DNA from: Aureimonas sp. SA4125
Lineage (GTDB): Bacteria; Pseudomonadota; Alphaproteobacteria; Rhizobiales; Rhizobiaceae
Length of the DNA: 64,000 nt
Direction: 5' to 3'
NCBI RefSeq assembly: GCF_019973775.1
Contig: NZ_AP025032.1
Location: 3,741,001 to 3,805,000 of the forward strand
Shown here piece by piece: positions 38,656 through 57,760 of the stretch. Position 1 is the first letter of the stretch; each line of letters starts with the position of its first letter. Under the pieces are notes generated by a model that searched no databases, was not told the DNA's origin, and saw nothing but the letters and a program-made list of their open reading frames with translations. A program made the translations under genes and the position numbers.

Positions 38656-39168
38656 CGGCTCTCCAGGCTTGCGCGGAACTGGTGCAATGTTGCACGATTC
38701 CGACACTCGCACCCTTCGTCGGTCCAACGCCTGTAAAAATCAACCGCCACAAGATTTTGCAGTTGTGTATGACGCGAGTCATCCATATATCCCGCCTTGC
38801 CCAAAGTCGCACGAGCCTGTGGGCGTCCCCCGATCCTCATATGCGAGGCCATCGGGACGGTCCTGGAGTAATACCCTCCAGTCGTCTTCGCGCCAAGCGA
38901 AGTCGAGGACGCCTTAAAGCAACGACGGTGCGGGCTTTTTTGGTCTCCCCTGGTCTCCACAGCCGGGAAAACTGAAGAGGCACACCCTCATTGCCCCATG
39001 TGCGGCGGGTTCAAGCCCTCCATGCCAAGGCAGACATCGACCGATGCCGAAGCACGCCGCTTCGTCGTCGGACTACGTCGCGAACGTATTCGAGCTTGCG
39101 AGCGCCTGTCCGGCGATCGCGGGACCGTCTTCGTCCGCTCATCTCCTTCGGTTCATGGGAAAACCCAG
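38656..39168 (+). promoter_or_regulatory. 513-bp divergent region with structured leader upstream of the decarboxylase gene
   Basis: No coding frame is convincing. Small hairpins are visible: CTGGAG/CTCCAG near 38863-38881 and CTTCGC/GCGAAG near 38886-38902, and a T-run of six at 38936-38941 follows a G+C-rich stretch. A structured leader that controls the decarboxylase by polyamine or ornithine is possible; alphaproteobacterial ornithine decarboxylases are known to have an RNA motif (speF) in this place. I could not confirm that motif by eye. Confidence 0.35.
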
Positions 39169-40302
39169 ATGGCAACGCAGCGCATCCTCGACTTCCTCGC
39201 CACCCGACGTCCGGCCGGCCCCTGCCTCGTCGTCGACCTCGATGTCGTCGAGTCCAATTTCGGCGCCTTCCGCAAGGCGCTCCCGAATTCGGCGATCTAC
39301 TACGCCGTTAAGGCCAATCCGGCGCCGGAGGTTCTGCGCCTCCTGTCCGCGCTCGGCTCGAGCTTTGACTGCGCTTCCGTTGCCGAGATCGAGATGGCGA
39401 TGGATGCCGGCGCGACCGCCGACCGCATTTCCTACGGCAACACGATCAAGAAGGAGCGCGACATCGCGCGCGCCTTCGACCTCGGCGTCAACCTCTATGC
39501 CGTGGACTGCGTCGAGGAAGTCGAGAAGGTCGCCCGCGCCGCCCCCGGCGCGAAGGTGTTCTGCCGCGTTCTGACGAATGGCGAAGGCGCGGAATGGCCG
39601 CTGTCGCGCAAGTTCGGCTGCGTCCCGGCCATGGCGATCGACGTTCTGGTTCACGCCGAGAGCCTCGGACTCGTCGCCACCGGCGTCTCCTTTCATGTCG
39701 GCTCGCAGCAGACCGACACCGAGGCCTGGGACGCGGCGATCGCCGATGCCAGCCATGTCTTCCGCGCGCTTGCCGAGAAGGGCATCGTCCTGACCCTCGT
39801 CAACATGGGCGGCGGCTTTCCGACGCGCTACCTCAAGGACGTGCCGTCGGCCGAGGCCTATGGCCGCTCGATCTTCGGCGCACTCAGCCGCCACTTCGGC
39901 AACCGCATCCCGGACACCATCATCGAGCCGGGCCGCGGCATGGTCGGCGACGCCGGCGTGATCAAGGCGGAAGTGGTTCTCGTCTCGCGCAAGTCCGCGA
40001 CCGACGAGAACCGCTGGGTCTTCCTCGACATCGGCAAGTTCGGCGGTCTCGCCGAGACGATGGACGAGGCGATCCGCTACCCGATCACCACGCCGCGTGA
40101 CGGCGACCGCATGGAAGCCTGCGTCATCGCCGGCCCGACCTGCGATTCTGCGGACGTTCTCTACGAAAAGAACCCCTACCCGCTGCCGATCACGCTGACC
40201 GTCGGCGACGAGATCCTCATCGAGGGCACCGGGGCCTACACGACGACCTATTCGGCCGTCGCCTTCAACGGCTTCGAACCGTTGCGATCCTACGTGATCT
40301 GA
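39169..40302 (+). CDS. Ornithine/lysine decarboxylase, PLP fold type III
   Basis: 377 aa. The start at 39169 gives the usual short N terminus. PLP lysine K48 is in YYAVKANPAPEVL; the family motifs SRKFGC, GVSFHVGSQQ, NMGGGFPTRY, EPGRGMVGD and the active-site cysteine in GPTCDSADVLYEK are all present. Single-domain alphaproteobacterial enzymes of this type decarboxylate ornithine to putrescine and often lysine to cadaverine. A rho-independent terminator follows. Confidence 0.93.
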   Translation: MATQRILDFLATRRPAGPCLVVDLDVVESNFGAFRKALPNSAIYYAVKANPAPEVLRLLSALGSSFDCASVAEIEMAMDAGATADRISYGNTIKKERDIARAFDLGVNLYAVDCVEEVEKVARAAPGAKVFCRVLTNGEGAEWPLSRKFGCVPAMAIDVLVHAESLGLVATGVSFHVGSQQTDTEAWDAAIADASHVFRALAEKGIVLTLVNMGGGFPTRYLKDVPSAEAYGRSIFGALSRHFGNRIPDTIIEPGRGMVGDAGVIKAEVVLVSRKSATDENRWVFLDIGKFGGLAETMDEAIRYPITTPRDGDRMEACVIAGPTCDSADVLYEKNPYPLPITLTVGDEILIEGTGAYTTTYSAVAFNGFEPLRSYVI

Positions 40303-52455: not shown

Positions 52456-53061
52456 TCAGTCCGCTCGCTCCAGGCGCCGCCGGGCAATGGCATAGGCCGC
52501 CTTGATCTTGCGATCATAGCCGTTGCGGCGGTAGGCGGGCCCGTTGTAGCGCCGGGCGAATGCCGCGAAGTCCAGCGCCGGCAACAGCGCCTCGAGGCAT
52601 TCCTCTTTCAGGAAGCGCGCCATGATCGCGAACTGCCCCTCGGCGGACTGGCGCGCCTCGGCCGCCATGGCCTGCGGAGACCCATAGCCGAGCCGCCGCC
52701 AATGCGCTCCCATGACCTGGCCAAGCCCCCAGGAAGTCGCGGCAAAGGCCGCGGCCGGATCGATGGCCGCGGCGCGATCGAGAATCCGCCAGCGGGCTGC
52801 CTGTGCCAGTGGATTGCGGACCGCACCGGCCCTGGGATCGGCGAGACCCGCCGCGCGCGCGCCTTCGCGCTGCCGACCCTCCAGCAGGCGATCGAAATAG
52901 TGACCTTCGAAACGGATCAGCGGCTCGCGCCGTCCGTCGAAGGCGGCATAGGCAACACCGTTCGTCTCGACCGTCGCGATCGCGAGAAGCACCGCCGCCG
53001 TTACGCCCGTCGACGTCTCGGTCTTCCTCGCTGCCAGGATTACCTCCGCATTCAACGCCAT
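52456..53061 (-). CDS. N-acetylmuramidase-like (DUF3380/PF11860-type) protein without signal peptide
   Basis: 201 aa from ATG 53061 (GAGGGAGG upstream). LLAIATVETNGVAYAAFDGR holds the catalytic-type Glu, and RFEGHYF and AATSWGLGQVMGAHWRRLGY match the domain found in phage endolysins and some tail-associated muramidases. There is no signal peptide, as for endolysins that exit with a holin, but no other phage or gene-transfer-agent genes surround it. Stand-alone paralogues are common in alphaproteobacteria; role unknown. Confidence 0.8.
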   Translation of the reverse strand: MALNAEVILAARKTETSTGVTAAVLLAIATVETNGVAYAAFDGRREPLIRFEGHYFDRLLEGRQREGARAAGLADPRAGAVRNPLAQAARWRILDRAAAIDPAAAFAATSWGLGQVMGAHWRRLGYGSPQAMAAEARQSAEGQFAIMARFLKEECLEALLPALDFAAFARRYNGPAYRRNGYDRKIKAAYAIARRRLERAD

Positions 53062-53105
53062 GCCACCCTCCCTCGATCCGACCCAGGCGATTGTCGCAGA
53101 CATGG

Positions 53106-53133
53106 AAAGGCCGGGGATTTCTCCCCGGCCTTT
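53106..53133 (-). terminator. Terminator downstream of dadA
   Basis: Perfect 12-bp stem ending AAA/TTT (53106-53117 with 53122-53133) with a 4-base loop, 36 bases past the dadA stop. Confidence 0.9.
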
Positions 53134-53168
53134 GTCGGCGCGACAGTCTTTGCTGGGATCCGCGAGGC

Positions 53169-54449
53169 TCAGGCGCTGTGCACCAGCTCGCGGGCGGCGA
53201 CGGGAGCCGCCGGGGCCGGCTGGAACGTCTTGCGCATCGCCGCGTCGAGCGTGGCAGAGACCGTCTCGGCCGTGATGGCGCAGAGCGTCCAGCCGAGATG
53301 GCCGTGGCCGGTATTGTAGAAGACGCCGGCCTTCGAACCCGCACCGACGCGCGGCAGCATGTCCGGCATCATCGGCCGAAGGCCGGCCCAGGGCACGACG
53401 GACGCGGTAGAGACGCCGGGAAAGCGCTTGCGCACCCAGGCCGTCATCGGGTCGATGCGCGCCATGCGGATGTCGCGGTTCTCGCCCGTAAACTCGGCCG
53501 TACCGGCAACCCGCAAGCGGCTGGCGCCGAAGCGGCTGGTGACGAGCTTGGCCTTGTCGTCGAGGATGCTGACCCAGGGCGCCGCCTCCTGGCTCGCGGC
53601 GTCAGTGAGGTTGACCGTCACCGAATAGCCCTTGACCGGATAGATGTTCACGCGGTCGCCGAGCATGGCGGCGAAGCGACGGCTCTGCGTTCCCGCGCAG
53701 ATGACGATGGCATCGACATGGGCCGTTTCCACCGAGCTACCCTGGCGGAAGGCGATGTCGACGCCCTGCCCGGTGTGCCGGAGCTTCGAGACGTCGGCAT
53801 GATAGCGGAATTTCACGCCCTTGCGGACGCAGGCGGCGGCAAGTCCCTGCGTGTACTTGTGGATGTCGCCGGTGAAATCGCTCTCGGTGAAGAAGCCGCC
53901 ATGAAACGTTCCCTTGATGGCCGGCTCGAGAGCGCGGATCTCCTCGGGCGTCACGGCACGGCGATCGACGCCGCCCTCGGCCATCATCTTGTTGACGGTG
54001 AGACCGTGCTCGAACTCAGCCGGCGTCTCGTAGACATGGAGAATGCCGCGCTTTTCGAGATCGAAGTCGATCCCCTCGTCGCTCGCCATCTGGATCAGAT
54101 GCGCGCGGGCGGCCACCGCCATGCGGACGGTCTTCACCGTGTTGTCGTGGTAGTTGCGGGCGGCGGCGACGAACTCCGCCATCCAGGAAATCTTGTGCCA
54201 GGACGGGGCGGGATGGACGAGCAGCGGCGCGTCCTTCTTCAGCATCCACTTCAGACCCTTCAGGAAGGTCGAGGGATGGTTCCAGACCTCGGCATTGCTG
54301 GCCGAGAGCTGGCCGCCATTGGCAAACGAGGTTTCCATGCCGGCATGACCCTGCCGGTCGAAGACCGTCACGTCGTAGCCGAGGGCGTTGAGTTTATAGG
54401 CAGTGGTGACGCCGGTGATGCCGGCGCCGATAACGGCGATAGAGGTCAC
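53169..54449 (-). CDS. dadA: D-amino acid dehydrogenase-like flavoprotein under glycine riboswitch control
   Basis: 426 aa with a GTG start at 54449 behind AAAGGA. FAD-binding MTSIAVIGAGITGVTTAYKL at the N terminus (written to 20 residues), GYDVTVFDRQ, and DadA-like FANGGQLSASNAEVWNHPS; C-terminal GHGHLGWTLCAITAETVSA. DadA oxidatively deaminates small D-amino acids and passes electrons to the respiratory chain. The glycine-sensing leader suggests that glycine, or an amino acid that yields it, may be a physiological substrate or signal. Alternatives are glycine oxidase-like or N-methyl amino acid oxidation. Confidence 0.9.
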   Translation of the reverse strand: MTSIAVIGAGITGVTTAYKLNALGYDVTVFDRQGHAGMETSFANGGQLSASNAEVWNHPSTFLKGLKWMLKKDAPLLVHPAPSWHKISWMAEFVAAARNYHDNTVKTVRMAVAARAHLIQMASDEGIDFDLEKRGILHVYETPAEFEHGLTVNKMMAEGGVDRRAVTPEEIRALEPAIKGTFHGGFFTESDFTGDIHKYTQGLAAACVRKGVKFRYHADVSKLRHTGQGVDIAFRQGSSVETAHVDAIVICAGTQSRRFAAMLGDRVNIYPVKGYSVTVNLTDAASQEAAPWVSILDDKAKLVTSRFGASRLRVAGTAEFTGENRDIRMARIDPMTAWVRKRFPGVSTASVVPWAGLRPMMPDMLPRVGAGSKAGVFYNTGHGHLGWTLCAITAETVSATLDAAMRKTFQPAPAAPVAARELVHSA

Positions 54450-54511
54450 AATCGATCCTTTCGACGCGAGGGCATTTCCCCCCGAGTCTGTCGTTGTGCC
54501 CCTCCGTTCTT

Positions 54512-54680
54512 GGCCTGAAAGTTTCACGCCGCAAGGGTTATCCCGGCCGGCGCTTGCTCCTTCGGCGGACGGGTGTGCCCGTCACTCTCCGGATATGTTG
54601 TCGGCCGCGCGGTCCCTGGTACCTGAGAGTTTCCGGGGCGGTTGCTCCTTCGGTGCCGGCTCTTCACCGGTCTCTCCCGC
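54512..54680 (-). promoter_or_regulatory. Tandem glycine riboswitch (gcvT element, two aptamers)
   Basis: Read on the minus strand, aptamer 1 (54680 to about 54618) has GGGAGAGACCGG, the core CGAAGGAGCAA at 54652-54642 and AAACTCTCAGGTACC; aptamer 2 (54592 to about 54512) has CCGGAGAGTGACGG, CGAAGGAGCAA at 54564-54554 and AAACTTTCAGGCC. This is the two-aptamer architecture of the glycine riboswitch. It ends about 62 bases before the dadA GTG. No T-run terminator is visible between the aptamers and the gene, so control of translation initiation is more likely. Confidence 0.93.
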
Positions 54681-54754
54681 TGCGGCAGGAGCCTTTTCAA
54701 TACGCCCTGCCCCTCTTGTGAGCAAGTGCGAAAAGGCGGCAGCGTTAGCGAAGC

Positions 54755-56269
54755 CTATTCGCCGCGCGGAAAGCGCTTCGCCTCTTCCAGAACGTTCAGA
54801 TCCATGTGGTTGCGCATGTAGCGCTCGGATGCCCGCTGCAGCGGCTGGTAGTCCCAGGGGTAATAGGCGCCGTTGCGCAGGGCCTCGTAGGTGACATGGC
54901 GCTGCGCCTGGCTCTCGCGCACCTCCCGATCGAATCGCGCCATGTCCCAGCGCGCCGACAGGAGCGCTTGGAAGCGCCTTACCTCGTCCCCATAGGCCGA
55001 ATCACCGGCAAGGTTCGTCAGCTCGAACGGGTCGGCGGAAAGATCGAAGAGCTGCGGCGGATCGAGCTCGCAGTGGTTGAATTTCAGGTCGCCCTCGCGC
55101 AGCGAGACCATCGGCGCCTGGCTGCCCTCGGCCGCATATTCCATCGGCACGGCCTCACGCCGCTCGCCCCGCGCCAGCGTGTCGATCAGCGACACGCCGT
55201 CGGTCCAGGGTTCGATCTCGCCGAGGTCGATTCCGGCGATGTCGCCAAGCGTCGCCACGACATCCAGCGTCGAGACCGGCGTCTCGACGCGGCGCGGCGC
55301 GAGGCCTGGCGCCGCCAGCATCAGCGGAACGCGCGCGGAACCTTCGAAGAAGTTCATCTTGAACCAGAGACCGCGCTCCCCGAGCATGTCGCCATGGTCG
55401 GAGAGAAAGACGACGACCGTGTTCTCGGCCAGGCGGCAGCGTTCGAGGATCCCGAGCAGCTCGCCGATCTTGTCGTCGATGTAGGAGATGTTGGCGAAAT
55501 AGCCGCGCCGCGCCCGGGCGATCTCTTCGGCCGAAATGTCGTAGGCCTCGTCCTTGCACGCGCTCATCAGGCGCTGGGAGTGGACGTCCTGGTCCTCATA
55601 CGCGATTTTCGCGATCTCGGGCTGCAGGAACGCGCAATCCTCGTAGAGGTCCCAGTACTGCCGGCGCGCGACATAGGGGTCGTGCGGATGGGTGAAGGAG
55701 ACCGTCAGGCAGAAGGGTCGCGTCTCGTGCCCGCGCGACAGGTCGTAGAGCTTCTGCCCGGCGAGATGGGCAACCTCGTCGTCATACTCGTACTGGTTCG
55801 TGATCTCGGCGACCCCGGCCCCGGAGACCGAGCCGAGATTGTGATACCACCAGTCGATGCGCTCGCCGGGCTTGCGGTAATCCGGCGTCCAGCCGAAGTC
55901 GGCGGGATAGACGTCCGTGGTCAGCCGCTCCTCGAGGCCGTGCAGCTGGTCCGGACCGACGAAATGCATCTTGCCCGACAGCGCGGTGTAGTAGCCGGCG
56001 CGCCGGAGATGATGGGCGTAGGTCGGGATCGAGGACGCAAATTCCGCGGCATTGTCATAGACCCGCGTCCGCGACGGCAGCTGCCCGGCCATGAAGGCGG
56101 CCCGCGCCGGCGCGCAGAGCGGGCTCGGCGTATAAGCATTGGCAAAGCGCACGGAGCGGGCAGCGAGAGCCTTCAGGTTCGGCGCATGCAGGAAATCCGC
56201 GGGACCGTCGGGAAAGAACGTGCCGTTCAGCTGGTCGACCATCAGGATGAGGAAGTTCGGACGATTCAT
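54755..56269 (-). CDS. betC: Choline sulfatase
   Basis: 504 aa. Type I sulfatase with the formylglycine site C52-A-P-A-R56 in SPLCAPARAAFMAGQ, metal ligands at the N terminus (NFLILMVDQLNG) and in FLSDHGDMLGERGLWFKM, and the C-terminal ERYMRNHMDLNVLEEAKRFPR block of choline sulfatases, cut short here. It converts choline-O-sulfate to choline, which feeds betaine synthesis. Unlike rhizobial betICBA operons it stands alone; an IS256 element begins 117 bases upstream of the ATG. GGGA before the ATG is a weak ribosome-binding site. Confidence 0.92.
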   Translation of the reverse strand: MNRPNFLILMVDQLNGTFFPDGPADFLHAPNLKALAARSVRFANAYTPSPLCAPARAAFMAGQLPSRTRVYDNAAEFASSIPTYAHHLRRAGYYTALSGKMHFVGPDQLHGLEERLTTDVYPADFGWTPDYRKPGERIDWWYHNLGSVSGAGVAEITNQYEYDDEVAHLAGQKLYDLSRGHETRPFCLTVSFTHPHDPYVARRQYWDLYEDCAFLQPEIAKIAYEDQDVHSQRLMSACKDEAYDISAEEIARARRGYFANISYIDDKIGELLGILERCRLAENTVVVFLSDHGDMLGERGLWFKMNFFEGSARVPLMLAAPGLAPRRVETPVSTLDVVATLGDIAGIDLGEIEPWTDGVSLIDTLARGERREAVPMEYAAEGSQAPMVSLREGDLKFNHCELDPPQLFDLSADPFELTNLAGDSAYGDEVRRFQALLSARWDMARFDREVRESQAQRHVTYEALRNGAYYPWDYQPLQRASERYMRNHMDLNVLEEAKRFPRGE

Positions 56270-56377
56270 GGGTATCCCGGGAAACTGGAGAAGAATCGAA
56301 GATGCCGGCGGCCCGGCAGGGCCACCGGCGGGTTTTCCCAAAGCAGCGAGAAGGCAGACTATTCGCATTTCCGCGCC

Positions 56378-56385: not shown

Positions 56386-57760
56386 GGTCGTGTCCGTCAA
56401 CGTGGTGGAAATTGAGTGTAGCTGAAGCGGCTCCGTTTCAGGCGACTTCGGTGGAAATCTGTTCGGGTTTTGCAGTGTTGCCCATGGCCATGAGGTCGGC
56501 CATGGGTTCGGTCTGCATGTAGCGGTTCTGGATCTGCCATTCGTCGTTGGCCTCGAGAAGGACGGCGCCGATGAGCCGGATGATGGATCCCTCGTTCGGG
56601 AAGATTCCGACGACGTCGGCACGCCGCTTCACCTCCTTGTTCAGGCGCTCCAGGGAATTCGTCGAATGGATCCGGGTCCGGTGCTGACTGGGAAAATCCA
56701 TGTGCGCCAGCACGTCGGTCTCGCTGTTGTCGATGAAGGCCCCGAGCTTTGGACACTTTCCCCGAAGCTGGTCGGCGACGTGGCGCAGCGCCTGGCTGGC
56801 GCTAGCACGATCGGGCTGGGCGAAGGCTTGGCGCAGCGCGGCCGCCGCCATGCTCTGCTGCGCCTTCGGGACATACGACAGGGCGTTGCGCATCCAATGC
56901 ACCCGGCAGCGCTGCCAGGAGGCGCTGAACACCCGGCGAATGGCGGCTTTCAGCCCTTCGTGAGCATCCGAGATCACGAGCTTCACGCCGGACAGGCCGC
57001 GGCGCACGAGGCTCTTGAGGAAGCTCGACCAAAACGTCTCCGCTTCCGAGGGGCCGATGTGAAGGCCGACGATCTCGCGCTTGCCGTCCGTGTTCACGGC
57101 CACGGCGATTATGGCGGCGACCGAAACGATGCGTCCACCCTCGCGCTGCTTCAGGTAGGTCGCATCCAGCCAGAGGTAGGGCCAGTCGCCAGTGAGAGGA
57201 CGGTCGAGGAAGCCGCCGACGCGTTCGTCGATGTCTTTGCACAGCTTCGATACGGTGCTCTTGCCGATCCCCGACAGCCCCATGGCCTGTACCAGATCGT
57301 CGACCCGCCGGGTGGAAACGCCGCTGATCCAAGCTTCCTGAATGACGGCAACCAAGGCCTTCTCCGAGAGCTTTCTCGGCTCCAGGAACGGCGGGAAGTA
57401 GCTGCCCTGCCGAAGCTTGGGTATCCGAAGCTGCAACGAGCCGAGCCGCGTGTCGAGCGAGCGGTCGCGGTAGCCATTGCGATAAGTCGCCCGTTCCTGC
57501 GTCCGTTCGTGGCGCCCGGCGCCGATCATGCCTTCAACGTCGACCTCCATAAGGAGCTGCATCACGCTCTCGGCTATCGTTCTCAGGAAATCGCCGTCCC
57601 CGGCTTTCGCAAAAAGCTCGGCAAGCGGTAGTCTGTCCTCGGTCATCGGGTTCTCCGGTCAGGTTGAAGTCTCGCAACTCCACCTTAGCCGCCCTATCCG
57701 GTGACCGCCTCAGCCACACCTTTCAATGTCGGAATTTCCACCACGAGCGCGGACACTACC
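56386..57760 (-). mobile_element. IS256-family insertion sequence, copy 2 (1375 bp)
   Basis: Same element as at 11646-13020, same length and orientation. Inverted repeats are 56386-56413 and 57733-57760. Its own 8-bp target duplication (CCGCCCGT) differs from that of copy 1, so it arrived by an independent transposition. Inserted between betC and the small P-loop gene without breaking either frame. Confidence 0.96.
56438..57646 (-). CDS. IS256-family (Mutator-type) DDE transposase, copy 2
   Basis: 402 aa, the same protein as the transposase at 11698-12906, including the D (WLDATYL), D (VISDAHEG) and E (NSLERLNKE) catalytic residues. Intact. Confidence 0.96.
   Translation of the reverse strand: MTEDRLPLAELFAKAGDGDFLRTIAESVMQLLMEVDVEGMIGAGRHERTQERATYRNGYRDRSLDTRLGSLQLRIPKLRQGSYFPPFLEPRKLSEKALVAVIQEAWISGVSTRRVDDLVQAMGLSGIGKSTVSKLCKDIDERVGGFLDRPLTGDWPYLWLDATYLKQREGGRIVSVAAIIAVAVNTDGKREIVGLHIGPSEAETFWSSFLKSLVRRGLSGVKLVISDAHEGLKAAIRRVFSASWQRCRVHWMRNALSYVPKAQQSMAAAALRQAFAQPDRASASQALRHVADQLRGKCPKLGAFIDNSETDVLAHMDFPSQHRTRIHSTNSLERLNKEVKRRADVVGIFPNEGSIIRLIGAVLLEANDEWQIQNRYMQTEPMADLMAMGNTAKPEQISTEVA

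Follow-up and report, generated by a model that had tools for sequence, protein, structure and literature searches.

Why does a tandem glycine riboswitch precede a gene annotated as a D-amino acid dehydrogenase? The question is raised by a 64,000-nucleotide stretch of Aureimonas sp. SA4125 (hereafter the window), in whose dadA-like gene and leader a sequence-only reading had noticed two glycine aptamers. I performed a comparative analysis of the leader, the gene, and their relatives in Pseudomonadota. The best explanation of the whole is that the locus probably encodes a riboswitch-controlled glycine dehydrogenase that would be able to replace the glycine cleavage system (GCV).

The tandem aptamers and the linked gene

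In a genome-wide search, both aptamers matched the glycine riboswitch family RF00504 (model length, 94 positions) over its full length and above its gathering score of 32 (Table 1). Thus, the two complete aptamers first noticed by eye were confirmed by the very family search that had been proposed for checking them. They are arranged in tandem ahead of a single gene, their matches share 3 bases, and the start codon lies 44 bases beyond the end of aptamer 2. The span originally given, 53169 to 54680, holds the tandem aptamers but trims 10 bases off aptamer 1. A cmscan of the window prints aptamer 1 only, because the better of overlapping clan matches is kept; a single-aptamer reading was dropped since the genome-wide search returns both. 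Of 783 first-look candidates in the 5.1 Mb genome (98.8% complete), 150 were scored, and these gave no further RF00504 match. By RF00504 family, the leader is a glycine riboswitch, for which glycine binding and a change of expression are predicted.

Table 1. Features of the riboswitch-dadA locus, its surroundings, and one compared genome. Positions are those of the window unless a genome or locus is named.
Feature	Position	Strand	Remarks
Flavin adenine dinucleotide (FAD)-dependent 'D-amino acid dehydrogenase', NF009074/PRK12409; proposed glycine dehydrogenase (DadA6-type)	53169..54449	-	426 residues, GTG start
Start codon region (UCG-A-UUGUG-A-CCUCU), anti-start partner	54441..54455	-	fold and pairing comparison
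Likely ribosome binding site AAAGGA	54456..54461	-	read from sequence
Small hairpin, anti-start strand to ribosome site	54467..54484	-	predicted fold
Proposed anti-start strand AGGGGCACAACGA	54491..54503	-	extends from the 3' strand of aptamer 2 P1; partner of the start region in the minimum-energy fold
Glycine riboswitch aptamer 2 (RF00504)	54494..54602	-	52.2 bits, E 1.4e-9, model 1-94 complete
Glycine riboswitch aptamer 1 (RF00504)	54600..54690	-	55.6 bits, E 1.8e-10 for genome, model 1-94 complete
Choline sulfatase (TIGR03417, 848.9 bits)	54755-56368	-	upstream of dadA leader, 64 bases from aptamer 1
IS256-family transposase (NF033543, 348.6 bits)	56438-57646	-	just upstream of choline sulfatase gene
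Small RNA ar45 (RF02347, 116 bits), speF leader (RF00518, 60.5 bits) 7 bases later	38799-39098	+	
GcvPA-like protein of genome G092	G092:C1:1749137-1750348 (L149:2138-3349)		just below cut-off

The encoded protein has a PF01266 domain and scores 675 bits against NF009074 'D-amino acid dehydrogenase' (cut-off 494). It stays below the cut-offs of classical DadA (NF001933/PRK00711; 337.9 bits, cut-off 383) and of the ThiO glycine oxidase (TIGR02352; 131.5 bits, cut-off 250.8). The gene had been called a D-amino acid dehydrogenase homologue and not gcvTHP, which is upheld by the NF009074 score and by the lack of any gcv gene downstream; with no gcv gene under its riboswitch, the locus falls outside the gcvTHP riboswitch regulon. 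In a protein alignment of relatives, conservation starts at MTSIAVIG, corresponding to 54449. A longer open reading frame (ORF) from 54527 was rejected as the gene start, since it would open within aptamer 2, ahead of the conserved part.

Is this linkage common? I compared 80 named relatives, the best by protein similarity alone out of 590 confirmed loci on GTDB contigs; they belong to alpha-, beta-, and gammaproteobacteria. An RF00504 match over the cut-off lies directly upstream in 77 of them (20/20, 20/20, 20/20, and 17/20), the exceptions being loci L073, L075, and L078. In a draw of 397 Pseudomonadota genomes with a completeness of at least 90%, 29 hold the gene (called at E <= 1e-100), with the riboswitch present at all but one of their loci (28 of 29; exception, L198); three of the 29 loci (genomes G000, G025, and G113) overlap with a set of 120 relatives from the order. 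That order set has 26 genes in 25 genomes, of which 24 are positioned after an aptamer. The other two are the sole copy of G017 (L141) and the second copy of G027 (L137); L137 was seen on a long branch of the DadA tree. A pattern search found no aptamer core at six distant DadA paralogues in two Cupriavidus genomes. No neighbour gene of dadA is common to more than 16 of the 80 loci, those 16 all belong to Aurantimonadaceae, and none is shared across clades, so an operon-partner explanation was dropped. Since no neighbour is shared and the riboswitch is nearly constant, the riboswitch is what travels with the gene. The riboswitch-dadA pairing is a family trait.

Apparent absence of the glycine cleavage system and the likely substrate

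In the Aureimonas sp. SA4125 genome, neither GcvP (PF02347) nor GcvH (PF01597) gave a match, while the same GcvP profile matches in 10 of 14 control genomes. Thus, the distinction from a glycine cleavage operon is stronger than the sequence-only reading had put it. All five near-complete genomes of the genus carry one aptamer pair and have no GcvP match, and GcvH is likewise unmatched in them, save for a short stretch of 23.3 bits in G003. In the sixth genome, which is 65% complete, neither an aptamer nor GcvH was found, and GcvP matched only weakly (E 1.3e-5).

Within the order, the trait is enriched in genomes without GCV. For 107 of the 120 genomes (at least 90% complete and at most 5% contaminated; 13 were left out), a genome was taken as GCV-less when it had no strong GcvP and no strong GcvH. 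Riboswitch-dadA is carried by 14 of the 18 GCV-less genomes versus 10 of the 89 with GCV (Fisher p 3e-8), or, with one count per genus, by 10/14 versus 10/89 (p 5e-6). Genome G092 was scored GCV-less, having a GcvPA-like protein at 363.4 of a cut-off of 364 and no strong GcvH; rescoring it as GCV-positive gives p 2e-7, and 3e-5 by genus. Short weak GcvP matches in G053 and G055 (E about 5e-4) and GcvH stretches of about 21-27 bits in G003, G027, G053, G072, and G092 were not counted as GCV, several of these stretches formally exceeding Pfam's low cut-off of 22.2. Relatives of GcvP in a second tier, with scores close to that of the GcvPA-like protein of G092, were also seen in G020, G071, G107, G108, and G115; together with that protein, they may be parts of another system. 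Four GCV-less genomes (G010, G049, G072, and G074) have neither the gene nor the riboswitch, and three of the four are 2 Mb or smaller. Each of the 14 GCV-less carriers has two aptamers in all when stricter filters are applied; some second aptamers of the order set come from the per-genome count and are not among the matches listed. Malate synthase G is above its cut-off in all 14 carriers and was found in Aureimonas sp. SA4125, so glyoxylate has a route onward.

In the phylum draw, GcvP is missing from 10 of 29 carriers versus 42 of 368 others (p 0.0018), which is the same direction but weaker; GCV state here means GcvP alone, and 5 of the 10 GcvP-less carriers were judged by absence among the matches listed. 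On a quick DadA tree, in which the state of the phylum rows is likewise GcvP alone, GCV state requires 10-11 changes, at least 7 of them forced by starred branches. Judged from this tree, the pattern is not a single event, and the tree does not separate gene transfer from gene loss.

What does the enzyme oxidise? The predicted structure (mean predicted local distance difference test score, 84.1) has a glycine oxidase as its closest solved fold. A single-sequence PDB search with the protein gave no match at 1e-10; at 0.01, weak glycine oxidase matches rank first, and a profile-based search likewise places glycine oxidases at the top. Such matches do not separate substrates, and the comparison is limited to the families represented in PDB.

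A closer hint comes from Cupriavidus necator, in which a gene called dadA6 was deleted and named a glycine oxidase (PMC11879842, 2025). With a single mismatch, the published check primer dadA6-rev matches locus L047 (C. necator UYPR2.512) at a place some 1.2 kb upstream of the gene that carries the riboswitch; in 300 trials, no shuffled primer came below 4 mismatches. It occurs with one mismatch in 6 of 40 Cupriavidus genomes, that of L047 among the six, while a control pattern occurs in none, and all six places adjoin a riboswitch-borne gene with two aptamer cores. Sequence identity between the window protein and that of C. necator UYPR2.512 is 62%. By this one of two published primers, and with strain H16 outside the genomes compared, C. 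necator dadA6 appears to be the riboswitch-borne NF009074 gene.

The suggestion that the enzyme turns glycine into glyoxylate thus finds support by comparison, namely from the riboswitch linkage, the enrichment in GCV-less genomes, malate synthase G, and the dadA6 primer match. The window enzyme most likely oxidises excess glycine, a substrate that I infer from these comparisons. It could instead be a true D-amino acid dehydrogenase, acting on D-alanine or others and induced by glycine on the grounds that an excess of glycine comes with D-amino acids or cell-wall stress. The NCBIfam family name and the 337.9 bits to classical DadA, though below 383, speak for that possibility. I regard it as rather unlikely, as the classical cut-off was missed, the distant DadA paralogues of the two Cupriavidus genomes examined have no riboswitch, dadA6 was named a glycine oxidase (PMC11879842), and the enrichment in GCV-less genomes would be left unexplained.

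Start-site pairing and the direction of control

The minimum-energy fold predicted for the leader has AGGGGCACAACGA base-paired to the start codon together with codons 2-3; the whole leader folds only slightly better than shuffles (z -1.4). AAGGA was found by eye at the ribosome-site position in 13 of 16 aligned leaders. Hairpins of differing sequence were also seen by eye, uncounted, at the same leader place in several relatives.

The anti-start pairing is preserved within Aurantimonadaceae through compensating changes on the two strands. Duplex energy averages -14.21 kcal/mol within species and -11.91 kcal/mol when strands of different species are combined; 1 of 10000 permutations was as strong, and 12 of 12 distinct leaders beat their own cross mean. 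A column count agreed more weakly (22 leaders, two without an anchor dropped): 72 of 96 cells are paired versus 23-41 in slid versions, 54 of 5000 shuffles were as high, and the first start-codon base is a misfit in 5 of 16 distinct rows. A different duplex is conserved in the other lineages, between the ribosome site and the 3' strand of aptamer 2 (-11.51 versus -9.48; 0 of 10000 permutations as strong), and 39 of 55 leaders there form a stronger duplex with their own partner than their cross mean. Neither pairing is seen in the other group: permutations as strong numbered 6423 of 10000 for the start-codon pairing in the other lineages and 6750 of 10000 for the ribosome-site pairing in Aurantimonadaceae. 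For these permutations, seven rows had been named beforehand for exclusion, owing to no riboswitch or a doubtful start, and six were present; L078, without an RF00504 match, was kept in.

A terminator-type platform was rejected, as nothing resembling a terminator lies between aptamer 2 and dadA, so translational control is likely. No sigma-70-like promoter was found in 53000-55000. With either lineage's pairing, access to the start site is coupled to the state of aptamer 2, and start-site control via covarying pairings suggests a translational switch. Without glycine, translation would be blocked by the strand continuing from the 3' strand of aptamer 2, which would form a duplex with the start codon and codons 2-3. 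Bound glycine would stabilise aptamer 2 and release the start; the tandem riboswitch would thereby sense excess glycine and let ribosomes start on the dadA-like mRNA. The flavoprotein would oxidise glycine to 2-iminoacetate/glyoxylate and ammonia, and malate synthase would then take up the glyoxylate. The electron acceptor is presumably a quinone at the membrane, by analogy with DadA. In this way, the riboswitch-dadA unit may stand in for the missing GCV in Aureimonas sp. SA4125.

Does glycine turn the gene on or off? The ON direction is one that I infer from the pairings, the role of degradation genes, and the GCV substitution, and the one-base overlap between the anti-start helix and P1 of aptamer 2 leaves room for OFF. 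With this overlap the two helices could stack, and glycine would repress the gene, for example to spare glycine. An OFF switch seems very improbable, since the ribosome-site pairing of the other lineages fits release on ligand binding, glycine is held to upregulate degradation genes under glycine riboswitches (PMC6944388), and a substitute for GCV favours induction.

Several observations weigh against a glycine-induced glycine dehydrogenase replacing GCV. The fold and the profile are also compatible with proline dehydrogenase, sarcosine oxidase, and D-arginine dehydrogenase. The anti-start strand has only one base in common with P1 of aptamer 2, so that the ON direction is tentative; 16 of the 55 leaders of other lineages do not beat the cross mean, and the permutation tests take no account of relatedness. 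None of the Cupriavidus loci tested contained a match to the forward dadA6 primer, and the dadA6 deletion brought the engineered strain no further gain in growth rate or yield (PMC11879842). The enrichment in the phylum draw is modest and based on GcvP alone. Genomes with GCV can have the gene as well (10 of 89 in the order; 19 of the 29 phylum carriers), so it is not only a substitute for GCV. On balance, I lean, with some hesitation, towards a broader view: the whole of PRK12409 may be a misnamed, riboswitch-borne glycine dehydrogenase, a portable unit of sensor and oxidiser that replaced GCV on several occasions among Pseudomonadota, the aptamers staying the same while each lineage rebuilt its own expression platform around them.

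Neighbouring genes and known systems

Just upstream of the leader, on the same strand, lies a choline sulfatase gene. Choline breakdown can end in glycine, and therefore this gene order may be meaningful. The enzyme might then act on sarcosine or another N-substituted glycine of the choline-betaine route, with glycine as the sensed product, and sarcosine oxidases are indeed among the close folds. This seems quite improbable, because among the 15 named Aurantimonadaceae loci L003-L017 (L005 has only 490 bases upstream) choline sulfatase was found beside the gene in just four (L003, L012, L015, and L016), no neighbour is common across clades, and a switch sensing the product would be expected to turn the gene off. 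Elsewhere in the window, the speF leader stands at the start of ORF 38998-40302, ornithine/lysine decarboxylase-like by eye, and ar45 and this leader may be on one transcript. Downstream of riboswitch-dadA in relatives, a C4 antisense RNA (RF01695) was seen at L047:4531-4623 and L050:4502-4594 (Cupriavidus) and L172:1136-1228, and an nhaA-I RNA (RF03057) at L031:5581-5644 and L043:5511-5574 (Comamonas) and L173:184-247.

Glycine riboswitches, their tandem form, and targets other than gcv are known already (PMC3766115, PMC6944388, PMC2211319). Twelve orthologue groups of glycine metabolism under the riboswitch are listed in the supplement of PMC3766115, and dadA may be among them. DadA6 as a glycine oxidase is already in print. 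A search of an open-access paper collection, with subscription papers, supplements, and RegPrecise tables outside it, found no paper linking a glycine riboswitch to dadA. The present reading offers a testable function for a widespread family whose sole name is 'D-amino acid dehydrogenase', extends the glycine riboswitch regulon by an oxidative sink for glycine, and indicates how bacteria such as Aureimonas may handle glycine without GCV. It also ties the dadA6 side reaction met in engineering C. necator for formate assimilation to a glycine sensor, whereby its expression could be predicted.

The locus resembles the gcvTHP glycine riboswitch (the GCV context of RF00504) in its tandem aptamers, its 5' leader position, and its glycine-degrading target. 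In contrast, the target here is one flavoprotein gene, not gcv, in a host in which GcvP and GcvH were not found. With ThiO glycine oxidase, the window protein shares the fold, PF01266, and the arginine of WAGLRP, whereas it lies under the ThiO cut-off and no thiamine gene was seen adjoining. C. necator DadA6 belongs to the same family, and one primer puts it at the same riboswitch-gene unit, while no mention of a glycine riboswitch was seen in the excerpt of that account (PMC11879842). Like the glcB (malate synthase) riboswitch of SAR11, the window riboswitch has a target other than gcv on the glycine/glyoxylate route; the SAR11 target uses glyoxylate, whereas the enzyme proposed here would make it (PMC2211319).
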